DNA of 64,000 nt from Xanthomarina spongicola (GTDB lineage: Bacteria; Bacteroidota; Bacteroidia; Flavobacteriales; Flavobacteriaceae). Location of the stretch: the NCBI RefSeq assembly GCF_003148645.1, contig NZ_QGGP01000002.1:231525-295524 (forward strand), given 5' to 3'. How positions within the stretch are numbered: the first letter of the stretch is position 1; each line of letters starts with the position of its first letter. Made by a program: the position numbers and the translations under genes. Positions 1 to 6,733 of the stretch are shown here, in pieces. Under the pieces are notes generated by a model that was not told where the DNA came from, ran no database searches, and was given only the letters and a program-made list of their open reading frames with translations.

Positions 1-370
1 GACCACTATCTGCATTGGCTATTCCAACATAAGTTGTAAAAGAGTAAGGTGAAAACATTCTTTGAATGGTACTGCCGCCATCAGTAGAACGAAATGGATA
101 CCAGTTAGAGGTATAAATTACTTCGTTAGCATCATAAGGATTAAATGTAGCTGATAATCCAAAATAATATTCAGGTACCCAAGGACTATAAGTTTGAACT
201 GACCAATTGGCACCACCATCTGTGCTTATGGCAATTTCATTGGTCTCTAAAACGTAAATTTTATCTTGAATAGTTGGGTGAAAAATCACTTCATTGATTG
301 CTTTTTCAAAATTTTGGAAATATTTATCTAATGTATTATATCTGATGTTTTGGCATTTGATTTCGAACAT
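1..370 (-). CDS. BNR/sortilin-type repeat protein, partial and probably 5'-truncated
   Basis: The reading frame enters from the right at an ATG and runs off the left edge of the window, so only about 123 residues are visible. It contains two Asp-box-like motifs, STDGGANWS and STDGGS, with beta-propeller spacing, as in BNR/VPS10-repeat exported proteins of Bacteroidota. The visible start has no signal peptide and opens directly with a repeat-like sequence. An in-frame TAA lies about 20 bp upstream and the neighbouring hipT gene begins immediately after. I infer that the 5' end of a larger secreted-protein gene has been lost, perhaps when the neighbouring accessory DNA arrived. A genuine short gene starting here is less likely. 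Confidence 0.5.
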   Translation of the reverse strand, partial: MFEIKCQNIRYNTLDKYFQNFEKAINEVIFHPTIQDKIYVLETNEIAISTDGGANWSVQTYSPWVPEYYFGLSATFNPYDANEVIYTSNWYPFRSTDGGSTIQRMFSPYSFTTYVGIANADSG

Positions 371-388
371 ATTTAGAGCAATAGAATT

Positions 389-1372
389 TTAATATAAGTT
401 CCAATCATTATTCTTGTTATTAACAAAGCTTAAATTGATTTGTTTTGCTCTTGTTTCAATTAACTCTTTAAGTATTTCTTTTTGTTCTAATGTTAAGAAG
501 CTATTATTTATTAACTCAAGCCACTGTCGCATGCCTTTTTCTATACGATTCCATAGGTTTTCAATAGCTTTTGCAGGGATTTGTACTTTGGCCATGGCTT
601 CGTTAAAATCTAGGCGCTTGATTTTTCGCTTTTTTCCGTTGAGGTTTAGCGCTAATTCTTCTTGATCTTCTGGAATTAATAATTTAACCGCTACCATATC
701 ATAGGCTGGTGCCAATGCATAGTGTTTACTGTCTTTTGCAATGAGTGAAAAGTTTTTTAAATGCATATCGTTATTTCCAATCAGGAAAGAAACAATAACT
801 TGCTCATAAAATTTTACGGCATCCAGTAATGGGTTTTGTGTATAGGTAATAATACCCTTTGCAATTTGCTCGTAAGATCCACGATATTTATGTTCTGTAA
901 GACGCTCTGTGAATTGGCAAGCATCTTCCATTGGGTATTTTTCGTTATTGGCAGTTCGATCTATACGCTTGGTTAAATAAGCTAAAGCACCATCTTTTAA
1001 TGGGATTAATAAAAAGGGTACTGTAGCTATGCCACAAGCTTGTGCTAATAACATAGATAGTGCCTCAATTTCTGGCATTTGTGGGTACATTTGAAATGGT
1101 GGTTTTAAAATATACCTGCCATTTAATGCACCTACAATGGTTAACCTATTTTGAGCATTTTCTTGAGTGAAACCTAATGATAATTTTGGTTGTACACCAG
1201 TAACGATGATGCGTTGTGCTACATTTTCTTTTGCCAACGCTTCGATTTGAGACATCTCAACCTCTAATTTTAGTACAGGCGTGTCTTCTTGCCAAAATGC
1301 TGTTAGGCAGTTTTGATGGTAGTTTATGTTACCATCTTCTAGTTTTTTGTGACATGCTAAACAGTAGTTCAT
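389..1372 (-). CDS. HipT-like Ser/Thr kinase toxin (HipA C-terminal domain)
   Basis: This is a 327-residue HipA-family kinase without the HipA N-terminal subdomain. That subdomain is encoded separately upstream, as in the tripartite HipBST systems. Visible kinase features are a Gly-rich loop (TGVQPKLSL, 58-66), a conserved lysine (ILKPP, K90), the catalytic loop GNNDMHLKN (D202, N207) and the metal-binding aspartate in PAYDMV (D225). An N-terminal CLAC (4-7) plus YHQNC (C22) looks like a small zinc-binding site. By eye alignment, the serines that are autophosphorylated in HipA and HipT are replaced by I56-V57-T58. The start overlaps the stop of the HipS-like gene by 4 bp, so the genes are translationally coupled. 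Family members phosphorylate aminoacyl-tRNA synthetases; the target here is unknown. Confidence 0.85.
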   Translation of the reverse strand: MNYCLACHKKLEDGNINYHQNCLTAFWQEDTPVLKLEVEMSQIEALAKENVAQRIIVTGVQPKLSLGFTQENAQNRLTIVGALNGRYILKPPFQMYPQMPEIEALSMLLAQACGIATVPFLLIPLKDGALAYLTKRIDRTANNEKYPMEDACQFTERLTEHKYRGSYEQIAKGIITYTQNPLLDAVKFYEQVIVSFLIGNNDMHLKNFSLIAKDSKHYALAPAYDMVAVKLLIPEDQEELALNLNGKKRKIKRLDFNEAMAKVQIPAKAIENLWNRIEKGMRQWLELINNSFLTLEQKEILKELIETRAKQINLSFVNNKNNDWNLY

Positions 1373-1686
1373 ACTTTCTCTATAATGCTAATATTGCCAA
1401 TACAATCTCTACATGTGGTTAATAATAAGCCCATGCGGTCTCTTGGATTTATTTTCCAATTTTTATGTGCGATGTCTAATAACCAACCTTCCGGAATTAA
1501 ACCATCGAAGAAAGGGAATAGGTATTCGGCACTAAACGATTCTTCTTGTAATGGTAACGTTAAACTCACTGCTAATGCGCTTTCATTTTCTAGGTATGCT
1601 TTTTCATACTTGAAATGATAGCCATTATCGTCCTCGGTTAATATACCTGCCAACGTTTTATTTACCCAGATTTCTCCTTGTCTCAT
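1369..1686 (-). CDS. HipS-like protein (HipA N-terminal subdomain)
   Basis: The 105 residues match the HipA N-subdomain 1 ('couple_hipA'). Motifs are WVNKTLAGIL near the start, AVSLTLPL in the middle, FFDGLIPEGW at about 60-69, and RDCIGNISI at the end. In single-chain HipA this domain is fused to the kinase; here it is a separate protein. In E. coli O127 HipBST, the equivalent HipS neutralises the HipT kinase. The start lies 29 bp inside the hipB-like gene and the stop overlaps the kinase start by 4 bp, so the three genes form one tightly coupled transcript. A frameshifted hipA is unlikely: each gene has its own ATG and the kinase has its own N-terminal cysteine motif. Confidence 0.8.
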   Translation of the reverse strand: MRQGEIWVNKTLAGILTEDDNGYHFKYEKAYLENESALAVSLTLPLQEESFSAEYLFPFFDGLIPEGWLLDIAHKNWKINPRDRMGLLLTTCRDCIGNISIIEKV

Positions 1687-1897
1687 CGCTTATAGGTGTT
1701 GGTGTTAGTGTGTGTCCAAAAAATAATAATACCTGATTTACTTTATCGGTCATTATATTTGGTTTTCCCTGTTCGAGTTCGCGTACAAAACGCAAGCCTA
1801 CACCTGTAAAGTCTGATAACTCTACTTGTGTTAGATTTGCTTTTTTACGTCTATCCCTTACAAATTGGGCTATTGTATTTTCTCTATCCCATTCCAT
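1658..1897 (-). CDS. HipB-like XRE-family antitoxin/repressor
   Basis: This 79-residue protein is almost entirely one helix-turn-helix domain of the Cro/CI (XRE) type: NLTQVELSDFTGVGLRFVRELEQGKP at about residues 21-46, with the recognition helix around GVGLRFVRELE. It is the first gene of the three-gene operon and overlaps the HipS-like gene. HipB proteins bind palindromic operators upstream of their own gene as dimers. Three matching operator-like repeats lie directly upstream, the first only 5 bp from the start codon, so autorepression is very likely. The frame has no alternative upstream start that would avoid those sites. Confidence 0.87.
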   Translation of the reverse strand: MEWDRENTIAQFVRDRRKKANLTQVELSDFTGVGLRFVRELEQGKPNIMTDKVNQVLLFFGHTLTPTPISDETRRNLGK

Positions 1898-1902
1898 TGT
1901 AT

Positions 1903-2000
1903 TATACCTTTATGGGTACAATATAGTGAATTATTTTACAATTATACCTTAAAGGGTGTAAATATTTTAATACTGCTGTATTTATACCTTTTAGGGTGTA
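1903..2000. promoter_or_regulatory. Three operator-like repeats, 40 bp apart, upstream of hipB
   Basis: Three copies of an 18-bp imperfect palindrome, consensus TATACCTTNNNGGGTRYA, start at 1903, 1943 and 1983. The half-sites TACC and GGGTR are conserved in all three, and the spacing is exactly 40 bp, close to four helical turns. This fits cooperative binding of the HipB-like repressor. The proximal site would cover the ribosome-binding region and the distal two the promoter. The assignment to HipB is inferred from position. Confidence 0.75.
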
Positions 2001-2063
2001 AAAATGCTATTTTTAATTTGTGATTTGAATTGAGTTAATTACTAATTCGTTCATAAATTTTGC

Positions 2064-2084
2064 ATGTTCATTGTCAATGAACAT
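2064..2084. repeat. Perfect 9-bp inverted repeat between hipB promoter region and dnaC-like gene
   Basis: ATGTTCATT and AATGAACAT flank a 3-base centre. Another half site (ATGAACA) lies about 15 bp further right. There is no strong T-run, so an intrinsic terminator is not well supported. It may be an additional regulator-binding palindrome or a weak 3' hairpin for the dnaC-like gene. Confidence 0.45.
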
Positions 2085-2132
2085 CAAAGAATAATGAACA
2101 CCGACATCAATAATTTTTTTTAAAATACTGTG

Positions 2133-2744
2133 CTATTGCCTTCGTTTGTCTTTTGAATTATTATTAAAGGCTATTAAATTTAAGGTTTCTCTTAATCTGC
2201 TTCTAACTCGATTGCCATAATGATGTTCAAGTTCTGATGCAGATAGGTTAGTGGTGAGATGTGTTTTAACTTTTTTGCTAATAAATAAATCATAGCGACT
2301 TAATAGAATTTCGCCCATCACATTACACTCGTTACCGAAGTATTTTAAATTGTTTTCTGTACCAAGATCATCAAAGCAGATGATGCCTGCTTTGGATTGA
2401 TGTAAACTTGGTTTGCTATATCTGCTTATGACGTCGTAACCCTCTTTAATGAACTCGAAACTCACTTCTCGACACGATTTCACATAGTATTTGTTTTGAG
2501 GGGAAGCTAAATGTTTCATTAGTGTCATTAACGTTGTTTTACCACAGCCAATAGGACCAGAAAGTAGTATTCCTTTTTCTAAATTAATATCGAGTTGATT
2601 TGTTGCTTCTTCATCACCTGTGCTGTAGGCCATGAGTTTATGAATAATGGTTTTGTCTTCGTCATAAATTTTGAAATGGTTACCAAATAGTTCTTGTCCT
2701 TTAGATTCTAGCCATTTGGTTGCTTTTTGGTAATTGTAATTCAT
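2133..2744 (-). CDS. DnaC/IstB-like AAA+ ATPase (putative helicase loader)
   Basis: The 203-residue protein has a Walker A motif (GPIGCGKTTLM, about 63-73) and a Walker B (GIICFDDLG, about 120-128). A sensor-1-like THLTTNLSASELEHHYGNRVRSRL region follows, including the arginine-rich stretch typical of DnaC-type loaders. In elements and phages such proteins bring the replicative helicase to an origin. It follows a replication-initiator-like gene in the same orientation, a pairing that supports a replication role for the mobile element. An IS21-type IstB is unlikely because no IstA transposase is present. Confidence 0.75.
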   Translation of the reverse strand: MNYNYQKATKWLESKGQELFGNHFKIYDEDKTIIHKLMAYSTGDEEATNQLDINLEKGILLSGPIGCGKTTLMTLMKHLASPQNKYYVKSCREVSFEFIKEGYDVISRYSKPSLHQSKAGIICFDDLGTENNLKYFGNECNVMGEILLSRYDLFISKKVKTHLTTNLSASELEHHYGNRVRSRLRETLNLIAFNNNSKDKRRQ

Positions 2745-2831: not shown

Positions 2832-3641
2832 TTAGAGTGGTTCAGAATAATTTTTATTGGTTGCTGTGTTGAGGTTTTTTGCGCGAATTGTCGGTGTTAT
2901 GTCGGTGTTGTGGTGGTGTTGCGCATTGAAATTGAAGCTATTAATCATCCAATTCTGTGCAGCAGCTTTCCAATTGGCCATAGGTGTTTTGCCACCTACT
3001 AGCCAGCCATTACTGGAGAAGTAATTAAAAAACTTTTTTGCTTCTAATTCTGGAAAGTTTTGTTCCAGGAAGTAATTGATCAGATCTTTTTCATTTGGCG
3101 TAATCATACTTTTATTTTTTTGACGCAACTTTTTTTGTTTTGTATTAGCAGCTTCTTTTATTAAATCTAAAGTTTCATTTTTAGAATCTAGAGATTGCTT
3201 CTTTATGTTTGTATTGTTTAATTTATTTGTATTGTTTATACTGTTTATATAAGATACTTCTGCTTGTTCAGGAATTGTACCAGTACCAGTATAAGACTTG
3301 CCTGTTACTTGTTTTATAACCTTGCTGTTTTTTGGTTTTGGTTTTAAGTTTTCAGAAAAATTAAAGAGATGTACTAAACTTCCTTTATAGGGGTTGTATG
3401 ATGGTTCGTATTTAATATATCCTAATGCGTGTAAATTTTTTAAGCATTTATGGTAAGTTGCTTTAGAGCTTATCTTGCTGATGCGCATGACTTCATCGCG
3501 CGAAATGCTAATGGGATTTCTGAAGCGGTTGCAGTTCCAGAATTGAAACAATGCGATATATAAACTGATATGTGTTGGGTTTAAGGTGTTATCGTTAATG
3601 ACTTTATCGAAAAAACCTGTTAAGTGTTTAATGTAGTTCAT
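2832..3641 (-). CDS. Replication-initiator-like helix-turn-helix protein
   Basis: The 269-residue protein has an N-terminal winged-helix-like region (about 1-110: ISISRDEVMRISKISSKATY resembles an HTH). A low-complexity Asn/Lys linker follows (about 125-180), then a C-terminal domain with FFNYFSSNGWLVGGKTPMAN and WKAAAQNWM. That ending resembles DnaD-like/phage replisome organiser C-termini, which contact DNA and the helicase loader. It sits just upstream of the DnaC-like gene in the same direction. I infer an initiator/loader pair that could replicate the excised element. The family assignment is by motif only. Confidence 0.6.
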   Translation of the reverse strand: MNYIKHLTGFFDKVINDNTLNPTHISLYIALFQFWNCNRFRNPISISRDEVMRISKISSKATYHKCLKNLHALGYIKYEPSYNPYKGSLVHLFNFSENLKPKPKNSKVIKQVTGKSYTGTGTIPEQAEVSYINSINNTNKLNNTNIKKQSLDSKNETLDLIKEAANTKQKKLRQKNKSMITPNEKDLINYFLEQNFPELEAKKFFNYFSSNGWLVGGKTPMANWKAAAQNWMINSFNFNAQHHHNTDITPTIRAKNLNTATNKNYSEPL

Positions 3642-3668: not shown

Positions 3669-3968
3669 TTAATTTTCTAGCATGTTTTGGATGTCTTCAT
3701 ACTTATAGAAGATGATGCCACCAATGCGCTTAAAATTGAGTGTTCCGTTAATTCGAAGATTTTGAAGCGTTCCTGGAGAGATGCGTAATAGTTTTCTAAC
3801 TTCTGATGATTTTAACCATTGCGCTGGTTTGTCTTCTTTTTTGACATTTTTTAATTCTTGAAGTAATGCATTAACCACATTTAATAGATCTCTTTTAGTC
3901 ACTAATTGGTGATTCAAAAGCTCTAAATTTTCGGTTTCTGGGAAAAGTGTTTTTGGATGTAAATTCAT
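3669..3968 (-). CDS. Small MerR/AlpA-type HTH protein (excisionase-like)
   Basis: The C-terminal half reads WLKSSEVRKLLRISPGTLQN followed by an LRINGTLNFKRIGGIIFYKYEDI region. This is the helix-turn-helix plus wing of the HTH_17/AlpA/excisionase superfamily, common next to Bacteroidota integrases. The N-terminal half is a helical region (LLNVVNALLQELKNVKKE). I chose the ATG at 3968 (99 residues). An upstream TTG at 3995 would add nine residues and lacks support. The likely role is a directionality factor for excision or transcriptional control of the rep/loader genes downstream. Confidence 0.7.
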   Translation of the reverse strand: MNLHPKTLFPETENLELLNHQLVTKRDLLNVVNALLQELKNVKKEDKPAQWLKSSEVRKLLRISPGTLQNLRINGTLNFKRIGGIIFYKYEDIQNMLEN

Positions 3969-4192
3969 AAAGTGTTTTGTATTGTTATGATACAAAGCAA
4001 CTTCATTTCGTAATTTTTCACTAACAAGGTAAACCCAAGGTGGGTGCTATTTTAATTGAAAAATATTTAATATGTTGATTTTTAATTATATGACTAGCGA
4101 TCTCTTATAGGTTTGTTTAGATGAGAAGTTGAAAACTGTTTAAATTATTGCCATTAATAATGGAAACCATAGTAGGGAAGACCCTGTGTGTT
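3969..4192. other. Intergenic region between HTH and RteC-like genes
   Basis: No gene is visible. It contains a short hairpin (ACCCAAGGTGGGT, about 4031-4043) and a near-palindrome around CCATTAATAATGG (about 4150-4162). It should hold the promoter of the HTH-rep-loader genes and could be a binding region for the RteC-like or HTH protein; nothing more specific can be supported. Confidence 0.4.
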
Positions 4193-5029
4193 TTAGGAGT
4201 CTTCTTCCATCAATTTTTGGTTGAGGCTGTCCACCAAACTATTTAAGAATTTTGTTCGAACCGTTTTTCTGATCTTGATATCTTGATATACTCGGTAAAT
4301 GCTATCTTCTAATTTAATATTAAAGAGTTTACCAATATGAGTCGCTAATTCTTTAACATCGGTGTTACCATTGTTAATTAGCTTTGCATGTTTTAATGCA
4401 TAGATGAGTTCTACCAAATCTATTTTGGTACCAGACCAGGAATAATTTACTGGTTGACCATAATTATTGGTGCCATTTTTATTATCGATTTCGTCAATTT
4501 TACGTTCCAAGAAATTAATCAGCATGTCAGCACTAATTAAGCTGGCTACTTGATAATCATGAGACGTCGATATTTTAGAGTCAAAAAACAATAGCATGGA
4601 GTGATCACGAATGATATCCTTATAGGGTCTTCTAATAAAATAATTGGTGTCGCTGTAAGTTGCTCTGCATCTAAAGTATTCATAGAATTCGCGATTTTCT
4701 TTTCCTAATTGAGTCGCTTTATTTAATGCCTTGATGTAATGTTTACGTTTTCCTTTTTTGCTTGGAGGCAATGTAGATTCAATTTTTAAAATGTGTTTGT
4801 AGTACAATATTTTAGAAACTAATGATGGTTTTAGTTCTTTAAAGAAATAGATTTCATCTTTTTCGTTTGCAAAGCAAAATGTTTTCACCCATTTATTGAT
4901 TTGCTTTAGCTTCTTTTCAAGAAAGAAAATCATTTTTTGACTATGCTCAATACTATTGCAATAGGTGCATTTGAGTAATTCAAAGTCACGCTCCAATTCC
5001 TGAAAGAATGGTATGCAAAAGGTATTCAT
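4193..5029 (-). CDS. RteC-domain regulatory protein
   Basis: This 278-residue protein resembles RteC of Bacteroides conjugative transposons. It has a helical N-terminal half with basic stretches, a YFRCRATYSDTNYFIRR segment at the centre (about 117-133), and a C-terminal segment YSWSGTKIDLVELIYALKHA typical of the family (a winged-helix-like DNA-binding region). In CTnDOT, RteC activates the excision operon. Here it lies directly downstream of the integrase gene and upstream of the excisionase-like gene, consistent with control of element excision. It contains no enzymatic motif. Confidence 0.8.
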   Translation of the reverse strand: MNTFCIPFFQELERDFELLKCTYCNSIEHSQKMIFFLEKKLKQINKWVKTFCFANEKDEIYFFKELKPSLVSKILYYKHILKIESTLPPSKKGKRKHYIKALNKATQLGKENREFYEYFRCRATYSDTNYFIRRPYKDIIRDHSMLLFFDSKISTSHDYQVASLISADMLINFLERKIDEIDNKNGTNNYGQPVNYSWSGTKIDLVELIYALKHAKLINNGNTDVKELATHIGKLFNIKLEDSIYRVYQDIKIRKTVRTKFLNSLVDSLNQKLMEEDS

Positions 5030-5127: not shown

Positions 5128-6375
5128 TTAACCAATTTGTTTGGCTTTTGTAATGGTATGTGTATTACCCAGTTTTTCCTTTAAAAGCCTCATGTCGTCA
5201 CTTACTTTTCTATCTAAAACTTTGGCGTAATGCTGTGTGGTTCTTAAATTTTTATGACCAAGCATTTTACTAACGCTTTCGATAGGTACGCCATTTGAAA
5301 GGGTGACTGTAGTCGCAAATGTATGACGCGCAATATGGAATGTGAGTTCCTTGTTTATTTCGCAAATTCCTGCTATTTCCTTTAAATAGGCATTCATTTT
5401 TTGATTGCTTAATATGGGTAGTAAACGATTTTCATTTAAGCATTGTGGATGCTCTAAATATTTATCGATAATTAATTGTGTTACCGGAAGGATCGGAATT
5501 TTAGAAGCAGATTCCGTTTTTTGACGGTGTGTAAATATCCATTTCTCACCATCAATACCTAAACTGATGTGAGATTTGGTTAGGTTCTTTACATCGATAT
5601 AAGCCAGACCAGTAAAGCAGCTAAATAAGAATATATCTCGAACTAGTGATAAGCGCTCTGTTGGGAATTCTTTGTTTAGTATTTTCTGGATTTCATCTTC
5701 TGTTAGGTATACGCGTTCTACTTCTCTAACTTTTGCTTTGTAGTTGCTAAATGGATTTTTATCTATCCAATTATTCGCTAAACAGATCTTGATTATTTTG
5801 CCGAAATTCTTGATGTATTTTACAGCTGTATTATTACTGCAGTTTCTTACACTTCTTAAATAGAATTCATATTCCGTAATAAATGCATGGTTTATTTTTA
5901 AGATGTCGATGTCTGATATTTTATATTTCCATTCTAAAAAATCAACGGTATGTTTTAATGATGTTTTGTAACGTTCTAATGTGCCTGGTGCGTATTCTTT
6001 ACCAATCAGTTCTTCAATCTTTTTATTATGATCTTGAAAAATGGGAATGAGCATGCGTTGTTTTTCATCAAGTCCGAGTAGTTTGCTTTTAAATGCTTTT
6101 GCTGTGATTGGAATATTTTGATGAATTAACTCCATCTGCATGTCAATAATCTTGACTTTTAGCATATCAAGCTGTCTATTTACTGAACGAGCTTCTTCTG
6201 ATTGGCCTTTCATTTTGCCTGCAGAGGTGGACCATTTGGATGGATCTACAAATCTTCCGGTGCTCATTTCAATTCGTTTTCCGTTAACTGTAATGCGTGT
6301 GTAAATAGGGAATAAGCCATTCGCATTGACTTTTGCTCTTTTTGCATAAAAGAGGATAGAAACTTTTGTTTTCAT
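5128..6375 (-). CDS. Tyrosine recombinase/integrase of a mobile element
   Basis: The 415-residue protein has the Bacteroidota integrase layout. An N-terminal arm-binding region (about 1-100, VSILFYAKRAKVNANGLFPIY) precedes a SAM-like core-binding domain (about 105-210) and a catalytic domain (about 215-400). Catalytic residues visible are R in CFTGLAYIDV context, HIARHTFATT (H-x-x-R), the later H of LGHKNLRTTQHYAKV, and the nucleophile Tyr in QHYAKV. It is transcribed away from the 3' end of tRNA-Ser, the usual arrangement for tRNA-integrated islands. The DNA between it and the tRNA carries repeated motifs that may be its arm sites. Confidence 0.9.
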   Translation of the reverse strand: MKTKVSILFYAKRAKVNANGLFPIYTRITVNGKRIEMSTGRFVDPSKWSTSAGKMKGQSEEARSVNRQLDMLKVKIIDMQMELIHQNIPITAKAFKSKLLGLDEKQRMLIPIFQDHNKKIEELIGKEYAPGTLERYKTSLKHTVDFLEWKYKISDIDILKINHAFITEYEFYLRSVRNCSNNTAVKYIKNFGKIIKICLANNWIDKNPFSNYKAKVREVERVYLTEDEIQKILNKEFPTERLSLVRDIFLFSCFTGLAYIDVKNLTKSHISLGIDGEKWIFTHRQKTESASKIPILPVTQLIIDKYLEHPQCLNENRLLPILSNQKMNAYLKEIAGICEINKELTFHIARHTFATTVTLSNGVPIESVSKMLGHKNLRTTQHYAKVLDRKVSDDMRLLKEKLGNTHTITKAKQIG

Positions 6376-6625: not shown

Positions 6626-6648
6626 GGTGGAATTTGTTTAATTCCTAG

Positions 6649-6733
6649 CGGAGAAAGAGGGATTCGAACCCCCGGAGGTGTGACCCTCAACAGTTTTCAA
6701 GACTGCCGCATTCGACCACTCTGCCATTTCTCC
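6649..6733 (-). tRNA. tRNA-Ser(TGA)
   Basis: The minus strand folds as a class II tRNA of 85 nt. The acceptor stem is GGAGAAA/TTTCTCC with discriminator G and no encoded CCA. The anticodon loop CTTGAAA has anticodon TGA (plus-strand 6697-6699), a long variable arm follows, and the T-loop is GGTTCGAATCC. The adjacent integrase suggests that its 3' end is the attachment site of the element to the left. Confidence 0.95.

Follow-up and report, generated by a model that had tools for sequence, protein, structure and literature searches.

The hipBST locus of Xanthomarina spongicola

The window, i.e., the whole stretch of 64,000 nucleotides of the X. spongicola genome that was analyzed, carries close to its beginning three genes on the minus strand. 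hipB (1658..1897) codes for a 79-aa XRE-type repressor (HTH_3, E 9.7e-6; couple_hipB, E 1.9e-19), with a couple_hipB score of 69.4 bits, just below the model cut-off of 71.65 (Pfam/NCBIfam); hipS (1369..1686) for a 105-aa HipA N-subdomain-1 protein, the predicted antitoxin (Couple_hipA, E 8.4e-27; TIGR03071, E 9e-32); and hipT (389..1372) for a 327-aa HipA-type Ser/Thr kinase without N-subdomain 1, the predicted toxin (HipA_C, E 2.7e-44). hipB and hipS overlap by 29 bp and hipS and hipT by 4 bp. The original prediction had described three separate genes with these two overlaps; the open reading frames, the strand and the overlaps were all as described, and profile searches conducted for each gene gave the expected HTH_3/couple_hipB, Couple_hipA and HipA_C families. 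The order of HTH repressor, HipA N-subdomain-1 protein and kinase core in separate genes is that of HipBST systems, as is a kinase devoid of N-subdomain 1 that retains the Hip kinase motifs.

In a sample of 80 hipT relatives drawn from genome contigs, the three genes are separate and in the same order in 79, with mostly short overlaps, and are fused in none; in the remaining one (L056) there is a partial kinase and no partner genes. Pairwise dN/dS values against close relatives, considered only where synonymous changes were neither saturated nor absent and with the overlaps excluded, were ~0.07–0.18 for each of hipB, hipS and hipT. The conserved three-gene arrangement is not due to chance and, given the separate open reading frames and the low dN/dS, hipBST seems to be maintained as three proteins. 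HipS corresponds to the N-terminal part of HipA and HipT to its C-terminal part, and the two reading frames could be taken for a single HipA gene split by a frameshift, or for a decaying remnant, but this is extremely improbable in view of the separate genes in nearly all relatives, the low dN/dS in every gene and the intact catalytic motifs. A frameshifted HipA in most relatives, which would have contradicted the initial proposal, was thus looked for and not found, and a frameshifted or fused HipA was ruled out on these counts. The gene order, homology, motif conservation, purifying selection, operator array and mobile context, all observed directly, make it likely that the locus is a functional HipBST toxin-antitoxin operon, composed of a repressor, a small antitoxin and a kinase toxin.

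HipT kinase and its partners

Legionella pneumophila HipT (HipT_Lp) is the nearest solved kinase to the HipT of the window, with a full-length match (E 5e-47, 164 bits), compared with 60 bits for E. coli HipT (HipT_Ec) and 29 bits for HipA. In agreement, the predicted HipT structure best matches 7vkc (TM 0.80), followed by other HipT entries. HipT has each of the four Hip kinase landmarks, namely the Gly-rich loop (I56-V57-T58-G59-V60-Q61), the lysine K90 in ILKP, the catalytic D202 in GNNDMHLKN and D225 in YDM, and the catalytic motifs are invariant among the 80 relatives.

Six HipT_Lp residues, including D133, R134, E144, K157 and K201, were shown to bind HipS (Zhen et al., PMC9325769). According to the alignments given by the structure search, on which the comparison with HipT_Lp rests, these residues correspond, without gaps, to D138, R139, E149, T159, K162 and K206, of which five (D138, R139, E149, K162 and K206) are conserved, each in 78–80 of the 80 relatives, and one, T159, differs. 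The contact residues, together with the operator arrays described below, are compatible with neutralization by HipS and autoregulation by HipB.

The position of the autophosphorylated P-loop serine (S54 in HipT_Lp, S57 in HipT_Ec) is occupied by Ile56 in the window and in near relatives, and in the remaining ones by Thr or Ser and rarely by a different residue, with T58 being nearly invariant. Since the S57A mutation abolishes the toxicity of E. coli HipT, the presence of an isoleucine at this position could mean an altered activity; the corresponding S54A mutant of HipT_Lp remains toxic (PMC10653801). P-loops of the aliphatic-aliphatic-Thr type were already listed among HipT kinases (Baerentsen et al., PMC10627512). 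We also noticed that the final ~40 codons of hipT (window 389–510) diverge abruptly from those of four relatives (L003, L004, L006 and L110), elsewhere ~94% identical, which suggests recombination at the 3′ end. In addition, a second HipA-type kinase, full-length or partial, is found a few kb from hipBST in three loci (L036, 5686–6972; L074, 6868–8175; L042, 3978–4568), as was noted for Bacteroides uniformis by Lin et al. (PMC10653801).

HipS matches HI_0666 and the HipS proteins of L. pneumophila and E. coli, and its predicted structure matches 7ab3_B (TM 0.77). The proposed HipBST-like identity of the locus therefore holds, with HipT matching solved HipT kinases from end to end and HipS matching solved HipS chains. 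The PEGW motif of HipS contains W68, the equivalent of E. coli HipS W65, which is required for neutralization (PMC10627512), and both E66 and W68 are present in 80 out of 80 relatives. In Legionella HipS there is no Trp, with I65/M66 in its place (PMC10653801). HipB matches its Legionella counterpart (8ezt) weakly (E 1e-3), and its similarity is weak outside the HTH.

A cysteine/histidine knuckle at the HipT N-terminus

The first residues of HipT form a CxxC...HxxC knuckle (1298..1372, minus strand), a predicted metal site with C4, C7, H19 and C22 as ligands. Its spacing, C4-x2-C7-x11-H19-x2-C22, is invariant in all 80 relatives, and the knuckle is also present in the 11 additional loci inspected, nine retrieved by profile search across the phylum and two from congeners. 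Residues 1–30 of the HipT model have a pLDDT of ~92, and the P-loop one below 50. The knuckle is predicted to bind zinc. In the profile alignment, HipT_Lp is aligned throughout this region and HipT_Ec over a part of it, with other residues at the ligand positions.

Operator array upstream of hipB

Three operator-like palindromes of the form TATACC-N5-GGGTRYA precede hipB: O1 (TATACCTTTATGGGTACA, 1903..1920), O2 (TATACCTTAAAGGGTGTA, 1943..1960), exactly 40 bp from O1, and O3 (TATACCTTTTAGGGTGTA, 1983..2000), exactly 40 bp from O2. Against these three exact matches, none is expected in the window; there is no other exact copy genome-wide, and two sites with a single mismatch were identified elsewhere in the genome.

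The periodicity is a property of the relatives as well. When 79 upstream regions were autocorrelated without any predefined motif, lag 40 appeared in 45 and lag 41 in 41 of them, against ~0.2 expected, with harmonics at 80–82 bp and no further lag shared by four or more regions. The branch motif, TATACCC-N5-GGTATA, is present in one to five copies per promoter, typically two to five, spaced by 40 bp (50 times), 41 bp (35 times), 42 bp (once) or multiples of these. A search for the motif in 80 promoters gave none with the pattern in 16, many of them from Bacteroidales with a diverged half-site. Three 18-nt operators, separated by 53-bp gaps and thus at a 71-bp pitch, are bound by HipB in Legionella (PMC10653801).

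Between the operator array and the DnaC-like gene described below lies an imperfect 25-nt inverted repeat (window 2049–2099), 80% complementary and with a 1-nt loop, which is partly retained in a congener (G007).

Two types of HipBST in Bacteroidota

We surveyed 296 Bacteroidota genomes for HipT-like kinases at a threshold of E ≤ 1e-60. Of the 48 genomes with a match, 35 gave a strong one (E ≤ 1e-105). In the other 13 the match was weaker (E 1e-65 to 1e-80) and usually left the N-terminus uncovered. A kinase of the window's branch or of the Legionella (Lp) type is thus found in about one in six sampled genomes. Eight of the weaker loci (L133–L140) were inspected. All eight code for a complete HipBST, with a HipT that begins with M(N)xCPITYE and has no knuckle, a HipS without Trp after PEG, and a P-loop that, over the part inspected, is S[IV]Q or SIA. 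Sites of the TACYG..CAGTA form were recognized in all eight. Six of the loci have more than one such site, with steps of 71–73 bp in five and one pair at 141 bp in the other. This pitch of 71–73 bp is that experimentally shown for the Legionella operators. By these features the eight loci are Legionella-type systems, and in the kinase tree they form a clade of their own (95/100), the window's branch being the remainder; the rooting of the latter is unsure because the two HipA outgroup sequences are very distant, on very long branches.

The resemblance to the Legionella HipBST system (Lpg2368-2370; PMC9325769, PMC10653801) is nevertheless extensive. The gene order is the same, HipT is matched over its full length and HipS is also matched, most HipS-contact residues of HipT are in common, and three 18-nt operators, with arms of 6 nt and at even spacing, likewise precede hipB. 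In contrast, the N-terminal mini-domain of HipT_Lp aligns with that of the window but is devoid of the CxxC/HxxC ligands, its P-loop is SVQ and not IVT, the operator pitch is 71 bp (53-bp gaps) instead of 40 bp, and the Bacteroidota Lp-type half-site, TACTG..CAGTA, differs from the TATACCC-N5-GGTATA of the window's branch. In this way, by the nearest kinase (164 bits to HipT_Lp, 60 to HipT_Ec and 29 to HipA) the system would fall within the HipBST_Lp subgroup, but it has IVT, W68 and 40 bp where that subgroup has an SVQ/SIQ P-loop, a HipS position 65 without Trp and a 71-bp pitch. The E. coli O127:H6 system (PMC10627512) has the same gene order, the Trp in HipS PEGW and the core kinase motifs; its HipT, however, scores only 60 bits, contains an SIS P-loop and has a known target, TrpS, and the operator motifs of the Legionella system are absent (PMC10653801). 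Thus, neither the close similarity to HipT_Ec nor the S-aliphatic-S P-loop of the HipBST_Ec subgroup is observed (60 bits, IVT), and the HipS Trp alone is shared. The HipBA systems of E. coli K-12 and Shewanella oneidensis also combine an HTH repressor, a HipA-fold kinase and palindromic operators, but there HipA is one chain, HipB is the antitoxin and the kinase similarity to the window HipT is 29 bits.

It could be argued that the window's system is a plain member of HipBST_Lp, with the knuckle, the Trp and the operators reflecting variation within one family and not a separate branch, given that HipT_Lp is the nearest solved kinase and that the homologs reported by Lin et al. across the FCB group may include the window's branch (PMC10653801). 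We regard this as unlikely, since the knuckle and the HipS Trp are missing from all eight Lp-type loci inspected in the same phylum, which have TACTG..CAGTA-type sites and group in a single clade outside the window's branch. Because of these contrasts, we consider the window's system to be a HipBST, although not a typical HipBST_Lp one, that belongs to a widespread Bacteroidota branch separated from the Legionella-type HipBST by the knuckle, the HipS Trp and the operator code. The original prediction of a diverged HipBST lineage was correct as to divergence; its reference to E. coli O127 needs correcting, the kinase being nearer to that of Legionella, and Bacteroidota relatives of HipBST_Lp had already been published (PMC10653801), the branch now being marked by its operator, HipS Trp and HipT knuckle.

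Tripartite HipBST systems, their occurrence in Bacteroidota and the aliphatic P-loop variants are already published (Lin et al., 2023, PMC10653801; PMC10627512). In the main text of openly readable articles we found neither the knuckle, nor the HipS Trp of this branch, nor the 40–41 bp operator code, nor the contrast with the Lp type of the same phylum, and a Bacteroidota branch with knuckle, HipS Trp and 40–41 bp operator array appears to be undescribed. The characterized HipBST systems that we found are from Gammaproteobacteria (E. coli, Haemophilus, Tolumonas and Legionella), and no published experiment or study on any member of the window's branch was found. The markers identified here (knuckle, HipS Trp, operator sequence and pitch) allow genomes to be sorted into two types by sequence, and open the way to tests of HipS inhibition with and without Trp, of the role of the HipT mini-domain and of a branch-specific kinase target.

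Proposed mechanism and kinase target

We infer the toxicity of HipT, its neutralization, the binding of DNA, the kinase target and the benefit to host or island as follows. HipT would act as a Ser/Thr kinase toxin, and HipS would bind over its N-lobe, keeping the Gly-rich loop away from the ATP site, with W68 probably wedged near the active site of HipT, like W65 in E. coli HipS. The operon would be repressed by HipB, by itself or together with HipS and HipT, through binding to the three palindromes that are spaced by 40 bp across the hipB promoter. Upon loss of the locus or a drop in HipS, free HipT would phosphorylate an essential host protein and growth would stop. By analogy with HipA/GltX and HipT_Ec/TrpS, the best candidates for this protein would be translation factors, probably an aminoacyl-tRNA synthetase; HipT_Lp, however, is rescued by neither GltX nor TrpS.

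More speculatively, the knuckle may make HipT of this branch a metal- or redox-dependent toxin, or dock a substrate other than TrpS or GltX, and the 40–41 bp operator pitch may impose a defined higher-order HipB(ST)-DNA assembly, a combination to which we attach a low probability. If this reading of the knuckle were true, E. coli and Legionella HipT would carry relics of it in the form of their metal-free mini-domains.

Genomic context

Upstream of the operator array there is an integrase cassette, entirely on the minus strand, composed of a DnaC/DnaI-like ATPase (2133..2744; AAA_5, E 5e-5; primosomal DnaI model, E 3e-8), a putative replication protein without family match (2832..3641), an HTH_17 excisionase-like protein (3669..3995; E 4.9e-7), an RteC-family protein (4193..5029; E 1.2e-61) and a tyrosine integrase with Arm-DNA-bind_5, SAM_5 and Phage_integrase domains (5128..6375). 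The ATPase and the order of the putative replication protein are conserved in Oceanihabitans sediminis (L003) and in the congener (L108). The integrase adjoins the 3′ end of a tRNA-Ser(TGA) gene (6648..6733, minus strand; ARAGORN), the probable integration target, as in tRNA-targeted elements.

In O. sediminis, ~94% identity to the window extends over hipBST, the four genes that lie between it and the integrase, and the 3′ end of the integrase gene itself; a Druantia DruE-like helicase follows hipBST. The congener (G007, L108–L110, contig C50) has the same tRNA-Ser, then a homologous cassette (integrase 55.7% identical), separated from hipBST by ~43 kb that hold Druantia type III, type I restriction-modification, SoFic (Fic) and RmrA-like genes. 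In Snuella (L004), hipBST comes directly after the same tRNA-Ser, beside the same nitroreductase and DegT genes. Other copies are near tmRNA or tRNA-Pro; in L016 (378–775) and L023 (2276–2673) a tmRNA gene lies 0.8–2.7 kb from hipBST, with an integrase between them in L016. Within the genus, hipBST is found in three of eight genomes, a fourth match being a distant kinase. Its distribution is patchy and mobile.

A direct repeat of the tRNA-Ser 3′ end (attL/attR) was searched for, and no shared 14-mer was found in the window or in the 20 kb to its left; 11–12-mers gave no convincing copy in the window genome, and nothing convincing was retrieved from G007 and three other loci. A comparison with empty sites in the genus showed the tRNA-Ser flank in all congeners but did not reveal the insertion footprint, as the left flank was unmatched at the DNA level. 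The suggestion that the operon is carried on a tRNA-Ser element is therefore plausible, considering the tRNA-Ser, the integrase cassette, the identity to O. sediminis and the cassette of the congener at the same tRNA, but the outcome of the att search leaves the ends of the element unproven, and a rearrangement of the element may have occurred.

hipBST would stabilize its island and may also contribute to defense against phages. A stronger version of the latter, in which the kinase is mainly an anti-phage effector, set free through interference of a phage product with HipS or HipB, and not an addiction toxin, would fit with the Druantia-like helicase beside hipBST in O. sediminis, with the Druantia, restriction-modification and Fic genes between cassette and hipBST in the congener, and with the abortive infection proposed by Gerdes et al. 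for other Hip kinases. The cassette of the window, however, contains no other recognized defense gene, and the mechanism would be identical, with only the trigger and the benefit being different; we take a mainly anti-phage role to be possible, but the less probable option.

The phage collection returned one weak match to HipT (26.7% identity, E 2e-6) and no close one, and the plasmid collection a few Bacteroidota plasmids with a HipT at 41–48% identity, none above 60%. On the other side of the operon, hipT is followed, 19 bp past its stop codon and in the same orientation, by the start of a gene coding for a BNR-repeat protein (window 1–370, extending into L082, 18342–19895). Compared with the nearest relatives, the 517-aa product is missing ~250 residues at the N-terminus, as would result from a truncation at the element end.
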